The notes below the pieces were generated by a model that saw only the letters and a program-made list of their open reading frames with translations, did no database searches and was not told where the DNA came from. Shown here piece after piece: positions 2,530 through 36,212 of a stretch of DNA of 44,862 bases. Source of the DNA: a virus; the IMG/VR virus record IMGVR_UViG_3300043409_000654, positions 1-44,862 of that record; one strand, 5' to 3'. Each line of letters begins with the position of its first letter. The first letter of the stretch is position 1. The position numbers and the translations under genes were made by a program.

Positions 2530-2730
2530 CTAGTTATAGGCCCGCGTATCTTTATCGATACGCAAGTAGTCACCACCGCGAATGCGCCTCGACCACGACC
2601 GACGTTCGCCCGTACTCATATGAGGCCACTCTTTGGTAATATCGAAACATGAAAACACACGCTGCATTGTTGCGTACTCATGCTCAGTTACGAACATGGT
2701 ATACCCACGCTCAAACCTTTTAATCTTCAC
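2530..2730 (-). CDS. Hypothetical small protein
   Basis: A 66-residue basic and aromatic protein, unrecognised. GTG 2730 overlaps the stop of the glycosyltransferase gene by four bases (GTGA), suggesting coupled translation. A later ATG at 2697 is an alternative start but has a weaker ribosome site. The C terminus (RRIRGGDYLRIDKDTRAYN) is charged. Nothing indicates membrane or metal binding. Confidence 0.55.
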   Translation of the reverse strand: MKIKRFERGYTMFVTEHEYATMQRVFSCFDITKEWPHMSTGERRSWSRRIRGGDYLRIDKDTRAYN

Positions 2731-3497
2731 TTCAAGTTACCGCCCGATTTTAGTATGTCACCGTTGTAGACATACGTCCCAACGTGATCCAGTTTCACAA
2801 AGGGGTGGGCGTAAATCTTCCCCCCGTGCTTCCTGAATAGCTCACAGAAGTGGTAGTCCTCTGATAGCAGCGCTCCACTTTCGTCGATGCTGGTAGCGAA
2901 GAACTCGTGTGTCAAGGGCTTCTCGTATTCGCCGTCTGGCTTGATGAACGAGGATACCCGGTAGGTCGGTACGTGCGGCTCAAGGAAGTCAAATACCCCC
3001 CGCTTGATAAGCATGAAGCCCGTGCCGCCGTGGCGCACTTCGATGACGCCGCGCTCGTCCGTTTCTACGTGGGCTTCGCCAACCATGTTGAACACAAAGG
3101 CACCGCCGTAGTCGTGCAGGTCTTCCTTGCCAGCGGCTACCGCGCGTTTGATGCTGTCCCAGTTCACTTCCTTCTTGGGGTAGATACCGCACACGATGTC
3201 ATCATCTACGGCTAGCAAGTGAGCCAGAGCCTCCCCGTCGAAGCCAATATCCGCGTCGATAAACATGAGGTGGCTGCAGTCTGTTGCGAGAAAGGTGCGG
3301 GCCAACTCGTTCCGGGCGCGGGTAATCAGGCTCTCGTTGGTCATGTGCGCCCAGCGCACCTCTACCCCAAGCTCCCGCATCTTGTTCATGGTGGTGAGCA
3401 AGCCCAGCACATACATACCCGTGCACATACCGCCGTACATAGGAGTGGCGATCATGATCTTGGGTCGCTCGGTCTTAACCTTAAACTCCTCGGTCAT
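2727..3497 (-). CDS. GT-A-like glycosyltransferase family protein (early copy)
   Basis: A 256-residue protein with the layout of small phage GT-A-like glycosyltransferases. It has an N-terminal strand KIMIATPMYGGM, the SLITRARNELA helix, LMFIDADIGF with the metal-binding DAD at 81-83, SEDYHFCELFRKHGG at 212-226 and a late KLDHVGTY with H238. Such enzymes use a nucleotide sugar; the acceptor (phage DNA, host surface or a virion protein) cannot be deduced. ATG 3497 overlaps the preceding stop (ATGA). A related gene lies in the late arm at 28244-28981, sharing LMFID-D-I, the EDY-FC block and the KL-H-G block. Confidence 0.75.
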   Translation of the reverse strand: MTEEFKVKTERPKIMIATPMYGGMCTGMYVLGLLTTMNKMRELGVEVRWAHMTNESLITRARNELARTFLATDCSHLMFIDADIGFDGEALAHLLAVDDDIVCGIYPKKEVNWDSIKRAVAAGKEDLHDYGGAFVFNMVGEAHVETDERGVIEVRHGGTGFMLIKRGVFDFLEPHVPTYRVSSFIKPDGEYEKPLTHEFFATSIDESGALLSEDYHFCELFRKHGGKIYAHPFVKLDHVGTYVYNGDILKSGGNLK

Positions 3498-3682
3498 TTC
3501 GGGTAAACTCCGTGGTATGCCAGTTCGTCCATTAGTTCTTGGACCTCTTGGCATAGGGCTTCGATGCGGTCGGCGGCCTCGGTGTAGGTTGCTTCAATGG
3601 CATCCCAATCCGTCACCCAGTGCTTTTCCACTAGCTTTCCGGGCAAATCATCCCGCAACCGCTTCACAAGATCATCATCCAT
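3494..3682 (-). CDS. Hypothetical small helical protein
   Basis: A 62-residue acidic protein with a helical core (TEAADRIEALCQEVQELMDE) of a type common in phage early operons. ATG 3682 has a clear ribosome site AAGGAGTATTCGGA. Its start overlaps the upstream HTH gene by eight bases and its stop overlaps the glycosyltransferase start. No function is assigned. Confidence 0.65.
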   Translation of the reverse strand: MDDDLVKRLRDDLPGKLVEKHWVTDWDAIEATYTEAADRIEALCQEVQELMDELAYHGVYPK

Positions 3683-25620: not shown

Positions 25621-26532
25621 ATGGCTATTTCACGCGCACAACTTCTCAAGGAACTCCTCCCCGGCCTGAACGCTCTGTTCGGTCTGGAGTATGCTCGCTA
25701 CGGCGAAGAGCATAAGGAAATCTTTGACACCGAAACTTCCGAGCGTTCGTTCGAAGAAGAAGCCAAGCTGTCGGGCTTCTCGGCTGCTCCGGTTAAGAAC
25801 GAAGGTTCGGCCATCGCATACGACAACGGTCAGGAAGTCTTCACTGCTCGCTACACCCACGAAACGATTGCCCTCGGGTTCTCGCTGACTGAAGAAGCGA
25901 TTGAGGACAACCTGTATGACAGCCTCTCGGCTCGTTATACTAAGGCCCTTGCCCGTGCGATGTCGTACACCAAGCAGACCAAGGCTGCTGCGGTCCTGAA
26001 CAACGGCTTTAGTGCATCCTACCCCGGTGGCGATGGCGTAGCACTGTTCTCGGCTTCGCATCCTATTGTGTCTGGTGGTGTTAACTCCAACACGCCTTCT
26101 ACGCAGGTTGACCTTAACGAAACGTCGCTTGAAGCCGCAGTCATTCAGATTGCTGCTTGGACCGACGAGCGTGGTCTGCTGATCGCTGCGAAGCCACGTA
26201 AGCTGATTGTTCCGCCGAACCTGATGTTTGTTGCTACTCGCCTGCTCGAAACCGAACTCCGCGTCGGCACGGCAGATAACGATATCAACGCCATCAAGAA
26301 CAACGGTTCGATCCCGGAAGGTTACACCGTTAACCACTTCCTGACCGACACGAACGGCTGGTTCCTGACCACCGACGTGCCGAATGGTATGAAGCACTTT
26401 GTCCGTACTCCGATGAGCACCGGAATGGATGGAGACTTCGATACCGGAAACGTCCGGTACAAGGCCCGTGAGCGTTACTCGTTCGGATGGTCGGATCCGC
26501 TTGGAATGTGGGGTACTTCGGGTTCGACCTAA
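25621..26532 (+). CDS. Major capsid protein
   Basis: A 303-residue protein with the features of phage major capsid proteins of the Mu gpT/HK97-fold type: an N-terminal helix, ARYTHETIALGFSLTEEAIED, a spine-helix region ARAMSYTKQTKAAAVLNNGF, LIAAKPRKLIVPPNLMFVAT, the VNHFLTDTNGWFLTTD strand and a terminal KARERYSFGWSDPLG P-domain strand. It comes after scaffold and decoration-like genes and is followed by a strong terminator, as expected for a highly expressed gene. ATG 25621 has AAGGAGGACTGGTTAA in front. Confidence 0.9.
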   Translation: MAISRAQLLKELLPGLNALFGLEYARYGEEHKEIFDTETSERSFEEEAKLSGFSAAPVKNEGSAIAYDNGQEVFTARYTHETIALGFSLTEEAIEDNLYDSLSARYTKALARAMSYTKQTKAAAVLNNGFSASYPGGDGVALFSASHPIVSGGVNSNTPSTQVDLNETSLEAAVIQIAAWTDERGLLIAAKPRKLIVPPNLMFVATRLLETELRVGTADNDINAIKNNGSIPEGYTVNHFLTDTNGWFLTTDVPNGMKHFVRTPMSTGMDGDFDTGNVRYKARERYSFGWSDPLGMWGTSGST

Positions 26533-26672: not shown

Positions 26673-27386
26673 ATGGATCAAGGTATCTACAAGATCATCA
26701 ATGTGGTGAACAATAAGTTTTATATAGGTAGCGCGGTTAGTTTCCGTAAACGGAAAGCGCGTCACTTCTCTGAGTTGCGCAACGGCAAGCACAATAACCG
26801 TCACCTACAGGCGGCATGGTATAAGTATGGCGAGCAGGCTTTTGTGTTTGTGGTTGTCGAGACGGTAGAGGACCGTGCAACGCTTCTCGATGTGGAGAAC
26901 CGATGGCTAAAACATCACGTAGGTCAGGAATACTGCTACAATATTGGCAGGGATGCTACAGCACCTGCGCTCGGTATGTCGGGGGAACTGAGCCCTACGT
27001 GGGGGTATAAACATACTATAGGAGCCAAGGAGCAGATTGGAGTACATAGCCAAGGAAGGGAGCACACCCCGGAGTCTCGCGAGCGGATTAGGCAGTTCCT
27101 TATCGGCAAACCAAAATCCGCCGAAACTCGCGCTAAGATAAGCGCCACGCTATCAGGTGCGGGTAACCCCAACTATGGTAAACCCCGCTCTGATGTGTTC
27201 AAGGAGAAAGTCAGTAGGGCTGTGGAGGTTGTAAACCCCGCGGGCGCAGTTGTACTGTTCCCTAGTATTGTAGCGCTACGGGAGACGCTAAACCTTAAAC
27301 CGTCCACAGTTAACCGCGCGCTTAAGTCCGGTAAGACTCTTACCAAAGGTCCGCACAAAGGACTGGCATTCCGGTATGCGGAGTGA
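26673..27386 (+). CDS. GIY-YIG homing endonuclease with NUMOD-type repeats
   Basis: A 237-residue free-standing homing endonuclease. The catalytic GIY-YIG module spans residues 1-92: GIYKI (4-8), FYIGS (17-21), H31 and the catalytic Glu E76 in DVENRWLKHH. Residues about 105-175 carry NUMOD3-like DNA-binding repeats (SPTWGYKH, HTPESRERIR, KSAETRAKI, NPNYGK). The end (VLFPSIVALRETLNLKPSTV and on) is an IENR1/NUMOD1-like wHTH. It lies between the capsid terminator and the next structural gene, a usual insertion place. ATG 26673 follows GAGGGTATT. Confidence 0.93.
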   Translation: MDQGIYKIINVVNNKFYIGSAVSFRKRKARHFSELRNGKHNNRHLQAAWYKYGEQAFVFVVVETVEDRATLLDVENRWLKHHVGQEYCYNIGRDATAPALGMSGELSPTWGYKHTIGAKEQIGVHSQGREHTPESRERIRQFLIGKPKSAETRAKISATLSGAGNPNYGKPRSDVFKEKVSRAVEVVNPAGAVVLFPSIVALRETLNLKPSTVNRALKSGKTLTKGPHKGLAFRYAE

Positions 27387-28243: not shown

Positions 28244-28981
28244 ATGCAGAACGAAAAGGGTTTTGATCTAGCCGGGCGCAGTCTCTTTATCGCGCTGCCC
28301 GCCTACGACTTTAAGGTTTCCTTGAAGCTGGCTATTTCGCTGGCCCAATTCGCGCAGCAGGCTCAGCAGCACGGGGTATCAATTCAGATTGGCAGTATTT
28401 GCGGCTGCTCTGTGGTATCCCGTGCTCGCAACCTGCTGGCGCAAGACATGCTTGATTCCGACTGCACGGACCTGATGTTCATTGATTCGGACATTAACTT
28501 CGAAGCAGCCGACCTTTTCCGCCTCATGGCGTGGACCTCAGACCCGAGTAAGGGGATTGTTGCCGGGGTACCGCGTACGCGCAGCACGACCAAGACTTAT
28601 ATCGGCACGCTCGATTACGACGACAACAACGAGCTTACGATGAACCGTATGGGGCTCGTCCGTGCCAAGCGGGTAGCAACTGCCTTTATGATGGTGCGCC
28701 GCGACGTCTTCGAAAAGCTGGACGCTATACACCCCGAATGGCGGTACTATGACGAGCGCTCTGGGCGCACGGTGCCTTGCATCTTCGACTTTATGCTGAC
28801 CGAAGAAGGCTACATCGGAGAGGACTACCTCTTCTGCGACCGTGCTCGCGAAGCTGGGTTTGAAGTCTGGGTCGATCCCACGATCAAGCTCGGCCACATG
28901 GGCGTGCAGGAATACGAAGGTGAGTTTGGTAGGGACGTCCTCTATCCGATGATTGTGCCCTCACAGAAGGAGGTAGCGTAA
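28244..28981 (+). CDS. GT-A-like glycosyltransferase family protein (late copy)
   Basis: A 245-residue homolog of the protein at 2727-3497. The same landmarks appear in order: LFIALPAYDFKVS, VSRARNLLAQDML, LMFIDSDINF with DSD at 81-83, GEDYLFCDRAREAG (192-205) and KLGHMGVQEY with H218. The metal-binding DSD and late His fit an active GT-A-like enzyme. As a late gene among virion genes it could modify a virion protein or the host surface, whereas the early copy may act elsewhere. Sugar and acceptor are unknown. Confidence 0.75.
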   Translation: MQNEKGFDLAGRSLFIALPAYDFKVSLKLAISLAQFAQQAQQHGVSIQIGSICGCSVVSRARNLLAQDMLDSDCTDLMFIDSDINFEAADLFRLMAWTSDPSKGIVAGVPRTRSTTKTYIGTLDYDDNNELTMNRMGLVRAKRVATAFMMVRRDVFEKLDAIHPEWRYYDERSGRTVPCIFDFMLTEEGYIGEDYLFCDRAREAGFEVWVDPTIKLGHMGVQEYEGEFGRDVLYPMIVPSQKEVA

Positions 28982-29442
28982 TGGTTAAGAAGACGAAACG
29001 GTATGACGGTGGCGGCGAGATCGTTGTCGCGGGTAACCGACCCACAGGGCCTGCTAATCTAGGTAGCCTTGGCGGTTACAGCCTTAACCCCGCTGCGCAA
29101 GCCAGCCTACGAAGGGCGGGTCCCTCCTCTACATCTGGTAGCTCGCCAGTCAGAAGCGGAAGCGCTCTTGGACAGCGTTTGACACCCCTCATCCCACCCG
29201 GAGCGATGGCCGCTATTGGTGCCCGGTTTGCTCCTGCGGTTGTTACACAGCCACAGTCGGCTTTGGGTAGTCTCGTCGGTGCGCGTACCCCAACTGGTTA
29301 TGGTGGTTCGTTCTCTACGCCTTTCAAGGAAGGCGGCAAGGTCAAGGCCAAGAAGATGGCTAAGGGCGGCTCAGTCTCCTCTGCCTCCAAGCGCGCTGAT
29401 GGCTGCGCTACCAAGGGTAAGACCAAGGGGAAGTTCGTCTGA
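28981..29442 (+). CDS. Basic protein with RADGC/GKTKGK C-terminal tag
   Basis: A 153-residue protein with a Gly/Ser/Pro-rich, low-complexity body and a lysine-rich end. The last part reads FKEGGKVKAKKMAKGG and SKRADGCATKGKTKGKFV. The RADGC and GKTKGK segments recur in neighbouring genes. ATG 28981 overlaps the glycosyltransferase stop (TAATG). Possibly a virion-internal DNA-binding or targeting protein; inference only. Confidence 0.65.
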   Translation: MVKKTKRYDGGGEIVVAGNRPTGPANLGSLGGYSLNPAAQASLRRAGPSSTSGSSPVRSGSALGQRLTPLIPPGAMAAIGARFAPAVVTQPQSALGSLVGARTPTGYGGSFSTPFKEGGKVKAKKMAKGGSVSSASKRADGCATKGKTKGKFV

Positions 29443-29696
29443 TGGCTAAGACCCCGGCTTGGACACGTAAGGAAGGCAAGAACCCCAAGGGCGGTTTGAA
29501 CGCCAAGGGGCGTGCTTCTTATAACAAGGCCAATCCGGGCAAGCCGGGGCTGAAAGCTCCGCAGCCGGAAGGCGGTTCTCGCAAGAAGTCATTCTGTGCC
29601 AGAATGTCGGGTGTGAAGAAGAAACTCACTAGCGCGAAGACGGCCAAGGACCCGAACTCGCGTATCAACAAATCATTGCGCGCGTGGGACTGCTGA
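29442..29696 (+). CDS. DUF6321 small basic protein
   Basis: An 84-residue protein strongly matching the DUF6321 pattern: TPAWTRKEGKNPKGGLNAKG, then ASYNKANPGKPGLKAP, FCARMSGVKKKLTS and NSRINKSLRAWDC. The family is frequent in environmental phages and of unknown function; it is highly basic with two conserved-looking cysteines. ATG 29442 overlaps the upstream stop (TGATG). Confidence 0.85.
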   Translation: MAKTPAWTRKEGKNPKGGLNAKGRASYNKANPGKPGLKAPQPEGGSRKKSFCARMSGVKKKLTSAKTAKDPNSRINKSLRAWDC

Positions 29697-29697
29697 C

Positions 29698-29943
29698 ATG
29701 GAAATGATGGTTTGGAACATTGTTCTCACGTCACTCGTAGCGCTGCTGGGTTTCATGATGAAGGGCAAGATGGATTCTCTTGATCGTTTGAGCGAGCTAC
29801 TTAACCGCACACGGGAAGAGATTGCGCGAGAGCATGTTACCCGCATCGAGATGACCGGTATCGTCGATAAGCTGGGCGAGCGGTTCGATAAGTCATTCGA
29901 GCGATTGGAAACCAAGCTCGACGAGATGTACAGGAAGGTTTGA
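29698..29943 (+). CDS. Membrane-anchored coiled-coil protein
   Basis: An 81-residue protein with an N-terminal hydrophobic segment at about residues 5-20 (VWNIVLTSLVALLGFMM) and a long charged helix afterwards with heptad spacing (LDRLSELLNRTREEIA and KSFERLETKLDEM). It is probably a single-pass membrane protein. ATG 29698 follows the upstream stop by one base. Function unknown. Confidence 0.65.
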   Translation: MEMMVWNIVLTSLVALLGFMMKGKMDSLDRLSELLNRTREEIAREHVTRIEMTGIVDKLGERFDKSFERLETKLDEMYRKV

Positions 29944-29945
29944 TT

Positions 29946-30119
29946 ATGCATAAGGAAGACCTCAAGCAGGACAAAGCCATGATCTCGGCGGCTGTCCACA
30001 AGCATGAAGCCAATATGCACAAGGGTAAGCCGATGACTAAGCTCAAGTCTGGCGGCTCTGTTTCTGCTCGTGCTGATGGGTGCTGCGAGCGTGGTAAGAC
30101 TAAAGGAAAGATGGTATAA
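29946..30119 (+). CDS. Very small basic protein with RADGC/GKTKGK tag
   Basis: A 57-residue protein: MHKEDLKQDKAMISAAVHKH, then a basic HKGKPMTKLKSGG and the ending SARADGCCERGKTKGKMV, nearly the same as the end of the 28981-29442 product. ATG 29946 lies three bases after the upstream stop, and the stop overlaps the next ATG (TAATG). Function unknown. Confidence 0.65.
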   Translation: MHKEDLKQDKAMISAAVHKHEANMHKGKPMTKLKSGGSVSARADGCCERGKTKGKMV

Positions 30120-30745
30120 TGCCCTCAACTAGCGCCAAGCAGTCCAAGTTCATGCGGGCAATTGCCAACAACCCCGCTTTTGCCAAGAAAGTTGGCGTTA
30201 AGCGGTCAGTAGGTAAGGATTTCGAGATGGCTGATAAGAAGGCAAAGAAGTTTGGTAGCGGCGGTACTACCGCCCCTAAGCCCAAGCCCAAGCCGCCTGA
30301 GGACGGCACGAACGGCCTGAAAATCCCTCCGGGTGGCTACAATGACCCGTACGAAAAGATGCCCCCCAAGCTGAAGCCAGAGCCGCGTAAGCCGCTTGGC
30401 CCTATGGGTAAGAAGGGATACGCTTCTGGCGGCGTTGCTAAGGTTATGCCGACGTCCGAGGAAATGGGCAGTTTGGGCCTGAAAAAGGGAGGCAAAGTTA
30501 TGAAGAAGGCAGATAAGGCGGGCCGCGCGCTCGTGAAGAAGTCGGCTGATACGATGGGCCGGGCGATGAAGTTCGCTAAGGGCGGCGGCATCGAAACCAA
30601 GGGTAAGACCAAGGGTAAGATGCTCGCAGTTGGGGGTGTGGCTGGTAAGCCGGAACAGACGGGCCTCGCTCGTGCTGCCGCTATGTCGGGTCGTACGATG
30701 CCAACGACGGGTCGTCCGGGCATGAAGCGCGGGGGTAAGTGCTAA
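30119..30745 (+). CDS. Basic low-complexity protein with internal GKTKGK tag
   Basis: A 208-residue protein. The start (TSAKQSKFMRAIANNPAFAK and KVGVKRSVGKDFEMADK) is a block often found in phage proteins. The rest is Lys/Pro/Gly-rich with KGGG, ETKGKTKGKML and a final MKRGGKC. This suggests nucleic-acid binding or a packed virion component. ATG 30119 overlaps the previous stop. Confidence 0.65.
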   Translation: MPSTSAKQSKFMRAIANNPAFAKKVGVKRSVGKDFEMADKKAKKFGSGGTTAPKPKPKPPEDGTNGLKIPPGGYNDPYEKMPPKLKPEPRKPLGPMGKKGYASGGVAKVMPTSEEMGSLGLKKGGKVMKKADKAGRALVKKSADTMGRAMKFAKGGGIETKGKTKGKMLAVGGVAGKPEQTGLARAAAMSGRTMPTTGRPGMKRGGKC

Positions 30746-30894
30746 TGCGCCCCTCGCGTGGCATGGGTGACATGAAGGCATCGAAGATGCCTAAGGGTAA
30801 GAGGGTTATCCGCACGGATAATCCCAACGATGTTACTATGTACGCTAAGGGTGGTAAGACTGGGGCCCACATGGGCAAGAAGAAGGGCAAGTAA
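30745..30894 (+). CDS. Very small basic protein
   Basis: A 49-residue protein: MRPSRGMGDMKASKMPKGKR, then an acidic-polar middle and YAKGGKTGAHMGKKKGK at the end, related in style to the tagged proteins around it. ATG 30745 overlaps the upstream stop (TAATG). Function unknown. Confidence 0.6.
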   Translation: MRPSRGMGDMKASKMPKGKRVIRTDNPNDVTMYAKGGKTGAHMGKKKGK

Positions 30895-30895
30895 G

Positions 30896-31348
30896 ATGGG
30901 CGCAGGTACCTCACAGCCGATGGGGCAGCAGGGGCAGCAGTATACCCCCGGCACTTTTGGTCCTCAGAACCCGCAGGGGGTCATGGCGCTCCAGAATGCG
31001 TATCAGCAGTTCCAGAACGGTGCTCCTCCGCAGCCAAATCCGATGTTTGGTCAGCAGCCGATGGGTAACCTTCAGGGCGCTCCGCTGGGCGGAGGTATGC
31101 CCCCTCCGCCGACGCAGTCGGGTATGCAACAGCAGTTTCAGGATTTCGCGCGCCAGCAGCAAATGGGCGAAGGTATGCCCCCGCAAGGCCCTCCCGCAAG
31201 CGTTCTTCAGGGTCTGCCCCCACAGGCCCAAGCGGCTATAGCTAATAGGGGTATGCCTATGGCCCCCGCGACCCAGCAAACCCGCCCCGAAGACCCCCGT
31301 ATGGCGGCGATGCGCTATATGCAGCAGATGAAGCTCGGTGGAAGGTGA
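30896..31348 (+). CDS. Gln/Pro/Gly-rich low-complexity protein
   Basis: A 150-residue, largely disordered protein rich in Q, P, G and M (MGAGTSQPMGQQGQQYTPGT onward), ending RMAAMRYMQQMKLGGR. ATG 30896 is preceded by GGCAAGTAAG and follows the previous stop by one base. An earlier in-frame start at 30830 would overlap the 49-aa gene. It may be a flexible virion component; no family is recognised. Confidence 0.6.
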   Translation: MGAGTSQPMGQQGQQYTPGTFGPQNPQGVMALQNAYQQFQNGAPPQPNPMFGQQPMGNLQGAPLGGGMPPPPTQSGMQQQFQDFARQQQMGEGMPPQGPPASVLQGLPPQAQAAIANRGMPMAPATQQTRPEDPRMAAMRYMQQMKLGGR

Positions 31349-31744
31349 GTGGCTCGGTCGGACGAACCCAAGTGGAAGAGCATTGTCGCTAGTGTAAAAG
31401 CTGGTGGCAAAGGCGGTAATCCGGGTCAATGGTCCGCTCGTAAAGCTCAGCTTGCCACCCAGCGGTACAAGAAGTCTGGTGGCGGATACAGCGGACCGAA
31501 GACAGAAGCGCAGAAATCCTTATCTAAGTGGGGTAAAGAAGACTGGGGCACGAAGTCTGGCAAGCCCTCTACGCAGGGAGCGAAAGCCACTGGTGAGCGC
31601 TATTTGCCAAAGAAAGCGCGGCAGGCCCTGACATCTAGCGAGTATGCTGCTACTACTAAGGCTAAGCGGGAGGGGACGAAGCAGGGCAAGCAGTTCGTTA
31701 AGCAGCCCAAAACCGTCGCCACGAAGACAGCGAGATTCAGATGA
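31349..31744 (+). CDS. DUF5872 protein
   Basis: A 131-residue basic protein matching DUF5872: SDEPKWKSIVASVKAGGKGG, NPGQWSARKAQLA, KKSGGGYSGPKTEAQKSL, WGKEDWGTKSGK and ATGERYLPKKARQALTSSEY. The family is common in phages and some eukaryotic viruses and its role is unknown; basic charge suggests DNA contact. GTG 31349 follows the upstream stop directly, and its end overlaps the next gene by four bases. Confidence 0.85.
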   Translation: MARSDEPKWKSIVASVKAGGKGGNPGQWSARKAQLATQRYKKSGGGYSGPKTEAQKSLSKWGKEDWGTKSGKPSTQGAKATGERYLPKKARQALTSSEYAATTKAKREGTKQGKQFVKQPKTVATKTARFR

Positions 31745-32457
31745 CCACAAGCGGCACCACCTCGTTCAATCTCGATCTCAATAACCTTGTAGAAGAGGCA
31801 TTTGAGCGTTGCGGGGCTGAGCTTCGTACAGGCTATGATCTCAAGACTGCACGGCGTAGCCTCAACCTACTCACCATTGAGTGGGCTAACCGGGGTATCA
31901 ATCTCTGGACTATTGAGTCTGGCTCGATCCCTATGGTGCAGGGGCAGATCACCTACGACCTGCCTGTAGATACAATTGACCTGCTCGAACACGTTATCCG
32001 TACGAACGCTGGTACAACTTCGAACCAGCTGGACATCAACATCAACCGCATCAGCGCGGATACCTACATCACGATCCCGAACAAGAACGCTCAGGGTCGG
32101 CCTATTCAGGTGTGGATCAACCGCCAATCAGGTGCGACCTATCCGGTTACTGGCGCTGCGCCTCCGCAGATTAATGTGTGGCCCGCCCCGGAACAGAGCA
32201 ACTACTATACCTTCTTCTACTACCGGCTGCGCCGTATTCAGGACGCGGGTAACGGCGTCAATACGCAGGACATCCCGTTCCGTTTTCTACCGTGCATGGT
32301 TGCTGGGCTGGCGTACTACCTGTCGCTTAAGGTCCCCGGCGCGATGGAACGCACCTCGATGCTTAAGGCTATGTACGATGAGGCTTGGCAGCAGGCTGCC
32401 GACGAAGACCGCGAGAAGGCCCCGCTGCGGATCGCCCCGCGTCAGATGTTCATCTAA
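31741..32457 (+). CDS. Probable head-tail connector or tail adaptor protein
   Basis: A 238-residue protein with an N-terminal helical pair (LNNLVEEAFERCGAELRTGY and ARRSLNLLTIEWANRGINLW), a beta domain (QGQITYDLPVDTIDLLEHVI) and a C-terminal helix ending in a basic tail. The order resembles gp4/adaptor-type proteins that join the portal to the tail in short-tailed phages. ATG 31741 overlaps the DUF5872 stop. Assignment by architecture and place. Confidence 0.65.
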   Translation: MTTSGTTSFNLDLNNLVEEAFERCGAELRTGYDLKTARRSLNLLTIEWANRGINLWTIESGSIPMVQGQITYDLPVDTIDLLEHVIRTNAGTTSNQLDININRISADTYITIPNKNAQGRPIQVWINRQSGATYPVTGAAPPQINVWPAPEQSNYYTFFYYRLRRIQDAGNGVNTQDIPFRFLPCMVAGLAYYLSLKVPGAMERTSMLKAMYDEAWQQAADEDREKAPLRIAPRQMFI

Positions 32458-32891
32458 TGCCTAACCCCTTTGCCTCTGGTAAGAAGGCTATCGCTGAGTG
32501 CGATAGGTGCGGTTTTCGCTACAAGCTGAAACAGCTTAAACGGCTTACCATCAAGACCAAGCTCACGAACATCCTCGTATGCCCGTCATGCTGGGAGAAA
32601 GACCAACCACAGCTGCAGATCGGTATGTATCCGGTCGATGATCCTCAGGCACTGCGCAACCCACGTCCCGACGTCAGTTACTGGCAAGCGGGTATGACCG
32701 GGCTCAAGGTGAAAACCCACGGCGAAGTACCCTCTATCAACTCACTAGCTTTCGGTACCCCTTCTGACGGTAGCCGTATTATTCAGTGGGGCTGGGCACC
32801 GGTCGGCCTCAATAACGCTTTGGCTTTGCCTGACCTCCCAAATACGCTATTAGGTGAGGGACAGGTCGGTACGGTAACCGTGCAAACATAG
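32457..32891 (+). CDS. Zinc-finger-like small phage protein
   Basis: A 144-residue protein with CDRC (15-18) and CPSC, two CxxC pairs of a zinc ribbon, followed by PQLQIGMYPVDDPQALRNPR, a segment familiar from environmental phages. The C-terminal half is beta-rich. ATG 32457 overlaps the preceding stop (TAATG). Function unknown; perhaps a virion or assembly protein. Confidence 0.7.
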   Translation: MPNPFASGKKAIAECDRCGFRYKLKQLKRLTIKTKLTNILVCPSCWEKDQPQLQIGMYPVDDPQALRNPRPDVSYWQAGMTGLKVKTHGEVPSINSLAFGTPSDGSRIIQWGWAPVGLNNALALPDLPNTLLGEGQVGTVTVQT

Positions 32892-32900
32892 GAGTAAGTC

Positions 32901-33029
32901 ATGGCTAAAGGTGGTAAGACTAACGAGCAGATGAAGAAGCTGGGCCGCAACCTCGCTAAGATCGCCAACCAGAAGAGTTCGGTGCGTAAGGTACCCACGA
33001 ACGAAGTGAAGGTGGTGAAGAATGGCTAA
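32901..33029 (+). CDS. Very small basic protein
   Basis: A 42-residue protein starting MAKGGKTNEQMKKLGRNLAK and ending VKVVKNG. ATG 32901 is preceded by AGGAGTAAGTC, a strong ribosome site, and it overlaps the next gene by eight bases. It resembles the basic KGGKT-containing proteins at 28981-30894. Confidence 0.65.
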   Translation: MAKGGKTNEQMKKLGRNLAKIANQKSSVRKVPTNEVKVVKNG

Positions 33030-33225
33030 GTTCAGCAAGAAGGTAATGGGCAACGAAGTTGGCTCTGCCGAAGTCTACGCCAAGCCGCACACCATGAGTG
33101 GTGGTACGGACATTAACCTCGGCAACAACGGCTACCCTAACAAGATCGCCAACACTCAGACACTGCGTACGCGCGGGACCAAGAATACCACTCGCGGGAA
33201 CAGCAGCAGCACAAAGATGGGATGA
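33022..33225 (+). CDS. Hypothetical small polar protein
   Basis: A 67-residue Asn/Thr/Gly/Lys-rich protein (MAKFSKKVMGNEVGSAEVYA onward, ending GNSSSTKMG). ATG 33022 overlaps the preceding gene. Likely disordered; function unknown. Confidence 0.6.
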   Translation: MAKFSKKVMGNEVGSAEVYAKPHTMSGGTDINLGNNGYPNKIANTQTLRTRGTKNTTRGNSSSTKMG

Positions 33226-34188: not shown

Positions 34189-34662
34189 GTGGCTATAACC
34201 CAAGCAATGTGCACTAGCTTCAAGGCGGAAATCCTCCTTGCTGTGCACGATTTCCGTAATACTGGTGGCGATACGTTCAAGCTGGCGATGTACACCTCGT
34301 CGGCTACTATTGACGCTAACACAACGGCGTATAGCGCTACCAACGAAGCTACCGGCACTAACTACACGGCTGGGGGCGCTGCGCTCACCAACGGCGGTGT
34401 GACGGCTACGAACACTTCGGCCTCGGCTGGTACGGGCTTTACGACCTTCAGCAACCTGACGTTTACCAACGCGACGGTAACTGCGCGCGGTGCGCTGATC
34501 TATAACACCACGCCTTCGGCTAACGGTACGGCCAATACTACGCTGACGAACGCTGCTGTGGCTGTGCTTGATTTCGGCTCGGACAAGACTTCGACGGCAG
34601 GTGACTTCACCATCATCTTCCCGACGAATAACAATACCTCGGCTATTATCAGGATTGCATAA
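34189..34662 (+). CDS. Small virion-type beta protein
   Basis: A 157-residue Thr/Ala/Asn-rich protein: FKAEILLAVHDFRNTGGDTF, KLAMYTSSATID, then repeated small strands and SDKTSTAGDFTIIFPTNNN. Proteins of this type are frequent beside tail fiber genes. GTG 34189 follows AAGGAGAACTTTC, a strong ribosome site. Probably a tail or fiber component. Confidence 0.7.
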   Translation: MAITQAMCTSFKAEILLAVHDFRNTGGDTFKLAMYTSSATIDANTTAYSATNEATGTNYTAGGAALTNGGVTATNTSASAGTGFTTFSNLTFTNATVTARGALIYNTTPSANGTANTTLTNAAVAVLDFGSDKTSTAGDFTIIFPTNNNTSAIIRIA

Positions 34663-36212
34663 TGGCGCTAGCCCTCGCTGACCGCGTACAGGAAACGACC
34701 ACCACCACTGGCACCGGCACGGTAACGCTTGCTGGGGCTGTGAGTGGCTATCAGTCGTTTGCGGTGATTGGCGACGGAAACACGACCTATTACGCGATTA
34801 CCAGCGGCACGGCGTGGGAAGTCGGGATCGGCACCTACACGGCTTCGGGCACAACGCTCTCGCGGGATACGATCCTATCGTCAAGCAACGCCAATGCGGC
34901 GATCACGCTGGCGGGCACTTCGAATGTGTTTGTCACGTTTCCCGCGTATGCGGGCGAGAAAGTGCTTTATAATTGGGTTGAAGGTGTAAACACCGCCGCA
35001 CCTAACGCGACGGTCCCGGTTACATATTTTACGCCTAGCAATGCCGCTACAAATGTTGATGCGGCGCTCACGCCCAAGGGAACGGGCGCACTGGCGGCGC
35101 AAGTCGCCGATAACACCACTACAGGCGGCGACAAGCGCGGCATATACGCGGTGGACTGGCAGCGTCAGCGTGGTTTGGCGACAGAGGTGGCAAGCGGGAT
35201 CGCATCGGTTGTCGGCGGCGGCATGGCTAACACTGCATCCGGTAATTACAGTGTCGTGGCTGGCGGCGGCGGGGATGACGGAAATCTAGTCTACGGCAAC
35301 GTAGCGTCGGGCGACTATTCATTTGTGGGCGGCGGGTATGACAACACGGCATCTAACGGTGGGGATGTTGTGTGTGGTGGGACCAACAACACCGCGTCGG
35401 GGGGCGGAAATGTTGTGTGTGGCGGGGAGAGCAACACCGCGTCAGGGGTTAATGCGTTTGTTGGCGCGGGCGCAGGCAACGCGGCCGCTGGATACCACTC
35501 TTTTATTGGTGCCGCGTTATATGGAACCGCGTCAGCAGACGGTGCGTTTGTTGGGGGCGGTTACGAAAATACTGCTTCTGGCGTCTACTCGTTTGTAGGT
35601 GGCGGTATCAACAATGCCGCGTCTGGGGAAGCTGCGGCTGTTTGCGGAGGGGACAACAACACTGCGTCGGGGGATGGGTCGTTTATTGGCGGCGGGTATA
35701 ATAATGTTGCAAGTGGGCAGGCTGCTACCATTGCCGGGGGTAACGGGGCCACAACGCGGGGACTTAGCGGGGCAGAGGCATTTGCGGCAGGTTACTTTTC
35801 TGCGGTTGGTGACGCGCAGCGGGCTTTGTATGTAGCTATTGGCGCGACCACGGACGCAACCCCGCTTATCTTGACTTTCGGCCAAGGCGCAGCAAGCACC
35901 ACGAACCAAGTCGTTCTGCCCAACGATGCCACCTACTTCTTCAAGGTTAGTGTGATTGCTCGCCGCACCGACGCGGACAACGAGAGCGCAGCCTACACAT
36001 TTGAGGGCTGCATTGACCGCAACGCTAACGCCGCCTCGACCGCACTCGTGGGAACCCCGGTTAAGACGATCCTCGCGGAAGACACCTCGGCGTGGGACGT
36101 TGCCGTCTCCGCTGACACCACTAACGGCGCACTGGCTATCACCGTCACCGGTCAGGCTGCCAAGACGATCCGCTGGGTGGCTAAAATCGAAACAGTAGAG
36201 GTTGTAGGCTAA
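34662..36212 (+). CDS. Tail fiber with YadA-head-like repeats
   Basis: A 516-residue fiber in three parts. Residues 1-105 form a module shared by many environmental phages (RVQETTTTTGTGTVTL). Residues about 180-370 contain at least ten repeats of the type GGGYDNTASG-YSFV, the signature of YadA/Hep_Hag trimeric adhesin heads, which fold as left-handed beta-rolls in trimers. Residues about 375-516 form a beta-rich C-terminal domain (LPNDATYFFKVSVIARRTDA) that may bind receptors. ATG 34662 overlaps the upstream stop (TAATG). Confidence 0.85.
   Translation: MALALADRVQETTTTTGTGTVTLAGAVSGYQSFAVIGDGNTTYYAITSGTAWEVGIGTYTASGTTLSRDTILSSSNANAAITLAGTSNVFVTFPAYAGEKVLYNWVEGVNTAAPNATVPVTYFTPSNAATNVDAALTPKGTGALAAQVADNTTTGGDKRGIYAVDWQRQRGLATEVASGIASVVGGGMANTASGNYSVVAGGGGDDGNLVYGNVASGDYSFVGGGYDNTASNGGDVVCGGTNNTASGGGNVVCGGESNTASGVNAFVGAGAGNAAAGYHSFIGAALYGTASADGAFVGGGYENTASGVYSFVGGGINNAASGEAAAVCGGDNNTASGDGSFIGGGYNNVASGQAATIAGGNGATTRGLSGAEAFAAGYFSAVGDAQRALYVAIGATTDATPLILTFGQGAASTTNQVVLPNDATYFFKVSVIARRTDADNESAAYTFEGCIDRNANAASTALVGTPVKTILAEDTSAWDVAVSADTTNGALAITVTGQAAKTIRWVAKIETVEVVG

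Follow-up and report, generated by a model that had tools for sequence, protein, structure and literature searches.

Position-Tied C-Terminal Peptides on Unrelated Small Proteins of a Phage Lineage: Candidate Virion-Docking Signals

Introduction

The closest described counterpart of the system treated here is the capsid targeting sequence (CTS) of phage T4. In the portions of two papers drawn on here (PMC9026906, PMC9391042), the CTS is a short terminal peptide common to the divergent small basic proteins IPI, IPII, IPIII and Alt, and the same portion of PMC9026906 describes it on small basic internal proteins whose bodies are poorly conserved between relatives. The subject of this article is a set of C-terminal peptides, called tags A, A-prime, B and C, whose study centres on 44,862 nt of the virus record IMGVR_UViG_3300043409_000654 (the window), with open reading frames (ORFs) read by six-frame translation. 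The tags are likewise short terminal peptides common to divergent small basic proteins. Nevertheless, the CTS is N-terminal while the tags are C-terminal, and the CTS is cleaved by gp21 while no separate protease family appeared among the scanned structural proteins of the window. Unlike the CTS, at least three tags occur per genome; every tag keeps to its own gene position, and bodies are exchanged between tags. Since the N-terminal position that defines the CTS is not found, the tags are not classed as members of it.

Other relatives are known by domain or by gene order. phiKZ gp165.1 and the families phrog_16759, phrog_22033 and phrog_25121 resemble the product of window gene 30119-30745 in its first 45 residues, but this module is N-terminal and is not the tag, and the matched stretch in those families excludes the tag. 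DUF6321, a folded domain known from cyanophages and pelagiphages, includes the window product of 29442-29696; tag A, by contrast, is a peptide in its own right that in some cases follows this domain. DSL-LC04 (Dishui Lake) and the HTVC023P-type pelagiphages have a similar order of terminase, portal, GroES, capsid, small genes and adaptor. However, tag A was not found in the fetched regions of DSL-LC04, HTVC027P and 023Pt_psg01, and HTVC023P has only a weak tag-B-like end on one protein. A description of the tag peptides or of the system was not found in an open-access library, nor was a paper on DUF6321. With moderate confidence, we propose that the peptides act as docking or virion-incorporation (address) signals for exchangeable small proteins at particular places of the assembling virion.

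Tag A at the Ends of Unrelated Proteins

Two window proteins end in tag A. The product of 28981-29442 (+ strand, 153 aa) has the C-terminus MAKGGSVSSASKRADGCATKGKTKGKFV-stop and that of 29946-30119 (+ strand; 29940/29946-30119 in the six-frame scan) has KSGGSVSARADGCCERGKTKGKMV-stop. The cores, RADGCATKGKTKGKFV (29392-29439, +; motif search and profile) and RADGCCERGKTKGKMV (30069-30116, +), stand immediately 5′ of the stop codons. This common C-terminus had been picked out in the first-pass annotation of the window and was confirmed by translation. When the last 16 residues of 35 downstream window proteins were compared pairwise, the best identity was 12/16, and 2000 residue shuffles reached at most 8. 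The annotation had placed one basic residue between RADGC and GKTKGK; there are actually two residues, the second basic (CA-TK and CC-ER, counted from C).

The consensus of tag A is [KS]GG-x-SSAS-RADG[IC]A-x-[KR]GKT[KR]G[KR][MIF][VIC]-stop. The group was defined by a KGG or SGG hinge and RADG[IC]x-x-[KR]GKT[KR]G-x-x-x at or within ~20 residues of the stop, and both window proteins belong to it, with profile scores of 49.1 bits for the 28981 protein and 44.6 bits for the 29946 protein. Viral contigs (IMG/VR) were searched with a DNA pattern encoding [RS]ADGxxxxGKT[KR]G. The pattern gave at least 120 matches in frame and five when shifted by one base. Chance or a bias of lysine-rich proteins was rejected from these counts and from the shuffles. 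Among 184 listed matches read as ORFs, 140 have exactly three residues from motif to stop, 41 end 10–21 residues after the motif, two end further away and one runs off its contig. As some positions are forced by the search pattern, conservation was counted at the unforced ones; in 173 unique listed copies, I/C was found in 163, A in 160 and K/R in 171. The earlier suggestion that the tag itself is selected is borne out by these positions, which are conserved while codons vary.

The bodies in front of the tag are unrelated, as had been claimed: 176 listed bodies (at least 30 residues, filtered for low complexity) fell into 76 clusters, 54 of them singletons, although the choice of threshold affects these numbers. 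When the bodies of all tags were clustered more loosely, 187 of 314 merged through KGG-rich stretches, and that result was set aside. Among 86 tagged representatives, the invariant columns are GG and tag residues only. Six genes that lie in or near one place, directly behind a glycosyltransferase-like gene, encode almost identical C-termini over 31 residues, and their bodies are for the most part unrelated; the capsid protein of one of these loci, L042, is nevertheless 89% identical to that of the window. PHROG scans of the 86 representatives gave 14 families, the best populated with two members, and Pfam scans gave three families with one member each. No Pfam or PHROG family matched tag A itself in these representatives or in the window proteins. 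An AlphaFold model of the 28981 protein (mean predicted local distance difference test score, pLDDT, 51) predicts disorder and is uninformative beyond that.

The conserved entity is the peptide and not the DNA. Where tags agree in a residue, the fraction of comparisons that also agree in the codon is 0.43 between loci and 0.54 within them; because codon choice varies, selection is taken to act on the peptide. Tags within a genome are likelier to be alike at seven variable positions (0.605 versus 0.413 between genomes; 43 pairs from 30 loci, with none of 2000 permutations as high), to which common descent and co-adaptation can both contribute. Where the peptides of a within-genome pair are identical, only three of six pairs are also identical in DNA.

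Weaker forms of the motif are found in neighbouring genes. The product of 30119-30745 (+), which ends in GGKC, was reported in the first-pass annotation to hold the motif internally. It does hold KGGGIETKGKTKGKML (30578-30625, +; translation and profile), but this is a partial tag A only, with RADG lost, and it scored 14.9 bits against the tag A profile. The KGGKT and KKKGK elements claimed for two further genes stood in part: 30745-30894 (+; 30739/30745-30894 in the scan) encodes a small basic protein with a KGG hinge, which ends in GKKKGK (AKGGKTGAHMGKKKGK-stop), has only the KGG part in common with the tag A carriers and has homologs in the same gene position, while 32901-33029 has an N-terminal MAKGGKT, lacks KKKGK and has a C-terminal module of its own.

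A scan of bacterial genomes for tag A gave 57 contigs, of which five hold real tags by eye (L128, L130, L134, L162 and L166); the other matches look like chance. The body module FxxAFxxARxxGxxxFxWxGKxYxT is also recurrent (L010:3887-4474, L036:6846-7973 and L103:6468-7097 among others); of the 17 unique proteins that hold it, 16 carry tag A.

Further Tags and the Gene-Position Rule

The adaptor gene homolog of the window (31741-32457, +), identified by the annotation of a named relative and by gene order, is the boundary between tag A genes and tag B or C genes. The first-pass annotation had treated all of its proteins as bearers of one tag; this does not hold, as the product of 32901-33029 (+) lies beyond the adaptor gene and carries tag C. 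It is a body-less protein with a MAKGG hinge, then KTNEQMKKLGRNLAKIANQ, then a short tail, and it fits the tag C pattern KTNxxMxxxGRxxAKxxNQ near the C-terminus. In relatives, the proteins encoded in the slot of this gene terminate in tag C (KTNxDMxxMGRNLAKxANQ). Tag B has the consensus RGTGAATKGxxARGPMA-stop, the usual ending being ARGPMA. A search of viral contigs with KGGxVxxRGxGAAx[KR]G gave at least 120 matches, and all 120 listed were C-terminal, 117 of them at seven or eight residues before the stop; the set is redundant, with 28 unique 24-mers among the 120 listed matches (full-length only). In the window, 33022-33225 (+), which like the tag C gene lies downstream of the adaptor gene, is by alignment a member of a tag-B-carrying gene family. 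Its own tag has decayed to RGTKNTTRGNSSSTKMG, which gave no tag B match at 15 bits and does not follow RG[TC]GAATKG-x-x-[AS]-x-GPM[AG].

Across loci, the tags keep to their sides of the adaptor gene. Tag A proteins were found upstream in 208 cases and downstream in four, tag B proteins downstream in 192 and upstream in three, and tag C proteins downstream in 87 and upstream in none. By locus, the exceptions number 3/127 for A, 3/192 for B and 0/87 for C, and in 99 of the 101 loci that hold both A and B, every A gene precedes the adaptor gene and every B gene follows it. These counts cover C-terminal tags only and leave out the re-fetched loci L188-L219, unplaceable proteins, tag A copies followed by more than four residues and tag C proteins with a tag-A-like motif near the N-terminus. 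The duplicate loci L188-L219 were kept in the tag B 24-mer, reassortment, capsid-adaptor interval and A/A-prime counts; the tag C survey dropped only part of these duplicates, but counted unique proteins.

Complete intervals from capsid to adaptor were available for 85 loci. Tag A is present in 53 (1–5 copies) and missing from 32, and 22 of the latter share another C-terminus in the same slot, A-prime (RG[AC]GxAxxGVR-CKM). The remaining ten, three of them named relatives, were without A-prime by a regular expression that misses at least one locus by eye (L261). A and A-prime were mixed in none of the 85 loci. In a tree of 53 unique capsids, the A-prime loci are in one supported clade (99/92; 13 A-prime and three with neither tag), which is nested within the diversity of tag A loci. 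Several consecutive genes of the A-prime clade (L228, L241, L261, L265, L312), including the DUF6321 gene, share an N-terminal MR[TRKV]YYKxGG. This MRxYYKxGG is an element distinct from the C-terminal tags.

Reassortment of Bodies and Tags

The same body is found with different tags. The HKHE body, which in the window product of 29946-30119 precedes a KSGG hinge and tag A, occurs in 39 unique proteins: two with tag A, 11 with tag A and a GGKC tail, five with tag B, 20 with tag C and one with none. A second body, DLTGDGKVTQADVLKGRG, was found in 14 proteins, with tag A in two, tag B in seven and none in five; we take it to be EF-hand- or dockerin-like. The junction of body and tag is the KGG hinge, and the tag C gene of the window consists of hinge and tag only.

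Phage Lineage and Named Relatives

Homologs of the structural genes of the window were found in 120 of 125 tag-bearing loci. The other five comprise three loci of less than 1.7 kb, L155, which is probably a chance match, and L166, a contig of a metagenome-assembled genome. Nearly all carriers of tag A are in one structural phage lineage, relatives of the HTVC023P-type pelagiphages. In twelve long records the order, wherever the genes were found, is terminase, portal, GroES, three genes, capsid and small genes, followed by DUF6321, tagged genes, the DUF5872-like gene, adaptor, a zinc-ribbon-like gene and further small genes. The major capsid gene of the window lies at 25621-26532 (+), and its protein family was the basis of the tree on which tag types were mapped.

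The nearest named terminases and capsids belong to DSL-LC04, HTVC023P, HTVC027P, 023Pt_psg01 and three cyanophage records of 65,014 bases. A first tag consensus query against named phages gave no match, and a second one led to these three cyanophage records. In the isolated Planktothrix phage Pag-Yong1, a 308-residue protein encoded between the capsid and adaptor genes ends in YASGGMIGRDGCAKRGRTKGRFI, a divergent tag A (15.8 bits). In the isolated pelagiphage HTVC023P, gp32 (QGZ17661.1, L221), encoded behind the presumed portal gene, has the weakly tag-B-like end IRGVGAAIRGHKFIGVK (8.4 bits). The records OL906435, OQ594354 and PP438419 are each exactly 65,014 bases long with identical matches and are named for Planktothrix, Synechococcus and Planktothricoides hosts; their host assignment may deserve a check.

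Neighbouring Genes

DUF6321 and DUF5872 genes had been reported in the tagged block. The first was confirmed: 29442-29696 (+; Pfam and PHROG) encodes a small, helical, basic protein matching DUF6321 (PF19846) with E 9e-20 and 71.5 bits against a cut-off of 28.5, over profile positions 1–72 of 72. DUF6321-like stretches were found in 519 phage records; the domain forms the C-terminus of long phage proteins, one of which, in phage S-SCSM1, is named Virion protein. One fold search with the DUF6321 model gave no match and another gave chiefly DUF6321 relatives. The second family fared less well, as the basic, DUF5872-like product of 31349-31744 (+) remains below the Pfam cut-off (PF19197; E 0.082, 13.9 bits against 27.5), though the PHROG families phrog_14910 and phrog_17747 cover it. 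Homologs of this gene occur in 44 of 53 loci with tag A and in none of 32 without, which is an association only.

Residues 1–45 of the 30119-30745 product match the phrog_16759 module and phrog_22033 and phrog_25121, which are families of virion structural proteins, and the N-terminal module is 64% alike to phiKZ gp165.1 over 47 residues. The gp165.1-type module was found in 98 phage records, mostly of jumbo phages, and also at L344:5629-5805. phiKZ gp165.1 is encoded near internal head protein genes, and elsewhere the module lies under features named structural protein.

Some other genes of the window are recorded here as well. A GIY-YIG homing endonuclease gene (26673-27386) lies directly 3′ of the capsid gene, between the capsid and cement genes. 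Two genes on opposite strands, 2727-3554 (−) and 28244-28981 (+), both match phrog_1574, of unknown function with weak glycosyltransferase-type matches, and one of them sits within the structural block. The gene 34662-36212 encodes a putative fibre with many GGG-x-NTASG repeats, which presumably resemble trimeric adhesin head repeats.

Discussion

A lineage-specific binding partner explains the tags best, because they are terminal on unrelated bodies, tied to gene position, switched in one capsid clade and, in some genomes, found behind DUF6321. Virion incorporation is the leading mechanism, because of the position in the structural block, the links of the 30119 module to virion proteins and gp165.1, and the precedent of the T4 CTS; prohead or virion targeting of the tagged proteins is our best inference. 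Tag A, on products encoded between the capsid and cement genes and the adaptor gene, would direct the proteins that bear it to the head, either into the prohead or to its inner shell, and tags B and C, whose carriers are encoded directly behind the adaptor and zinc-ribbon genes, would direct theirs to the neck or tail side. The bodies may be cargo or accessory domains, joined through the flexible KGG hinge and swapped among genes and tags by recombination. The tag would bind, and persist because of, a structural protein of the lineage that itself persists; its carriers would then be part of the virion, and some may be delivered into the host. A bolder version, which we put forward only tentatively, is that of a postal code, in which each genome holds a number of different C-terminal addresses (A or A-prime, B, C), each with its own structural partner, that would assign fast-changing small proteins to head or neck and possibly into the host. 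Bodies could be re-addressed by a swap of tags, and a whole clade could change an address together with its receptor.

Several results weigh against docking. Tag A is not essential to this capsid type, because DSL-LC04, HTVC027P and 023Pt_psg01 were without it in the regions fetched, and it stands behind the C-terminus of DUF6321 in some genomes only. Searches of solved structures with the tag, the capsid, the adaptor and DUF6321 gave no match, and no receptor for the tag was found in them. The "virion" labels of the matched families and of the S-SCSM1 protein are annotation names. Tag B is frequently found on one conserved gene family, and codon identity is also higher within genomes (0.53 versus 0.42), so there was some recent copying. 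Lastly, the position rule itself could also come about if resident 3′ ends stay and 5′ parts are replaced.

This exchange of 5′ parts in front of staying 3′ gene ends is the main alternative. New 5′ parts would be captured near the GG-coding hinge, and the C-terminus would serve as no address but be kept only for ordinary reasons of folding, stability or translational coupling to the following gene. Tags do follow gene position, bodies reassort at the KGG hinge, and in the window genes such as those ending at 29442 and 30119 have stop codons that touch or overlap the start of the gene behind them. Against this, the same tag is found on one to five genes per locus with different codons, the otherwise conserved DUF6321 protein is followed by tag A in some genomes and not in others, and the retention of one peptide by dozens of unrelated bodies would seem to call for a common partner. 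We regard this explanation as rather unlikely.

Low probability is also given to the view of the tags as plain basic nucleic-acid-binding tails, through which their carriers, as small internal proteins that condense DNA, would touch it. The carriers of tag A and their neighbours are basic (net charges of +19 for the 28981 product, +7 for 29946, +33 for 30119, +11 for 30745 and +23 for 31349), and the adjoining DUF6321 protein is small, helical and basic. Selection on charge alone would nevertheless not be expected to yield near-invariant A, D, G, I/C and T, in part forced by the search pattern, at a fixed distance from the stop; nor would it lead three different tags to keep to their gene positions or give the A-prime capsid clade a different sequence in the same slot.

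A protease, either a prohead protease or host Clp/Lon, might instead recognise the tag as a processing or quality-control signal and remove or degrade it, rather than a partner docking with it. The T4 CTS is, in the portion of PMC9026906 drawn on, both a targeting and a cleavage signal. Cleavage might here take place at the GG hinge. However, Pfam and PHROG scans revealed no separate protease family among the window structural proteins scanned, though remote proteases would be missed; where the window capsid protein matches two fused capsid/protease PHROGs, the match lies in their capsid part. A degron would not need versions specific to gene positions. We consider this explanation very unlikely. 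A DNA- or RNA-level element (recombination site, terminator or regulatory RNA) translated by happenstance would recur near gene ends in the small-gene block as the tags do, but it is largely refuted by the codon data, namely low codon identity between and within loci with many synonymous codons, and DNA identity in only half of the six identical peptide pairs.

Significance

The tag system is seen in a large, mostly uncultured group of bacterial viruses. If the tags dock, a tag A end would mark any protein of this widespread environmental phage group as a candidate for the virion, and the bodies would furnish a catalogue of proteins that may be injected or have accessory roles; almost none of these bodies has a family assignment. 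The idea is testable, as the isolated phage Pag-Yong1 has a divergent tag A. If it is true, a small genome with several coexisting addresses would also offer a means to load distinct proteins at separate sites of a phage particle.

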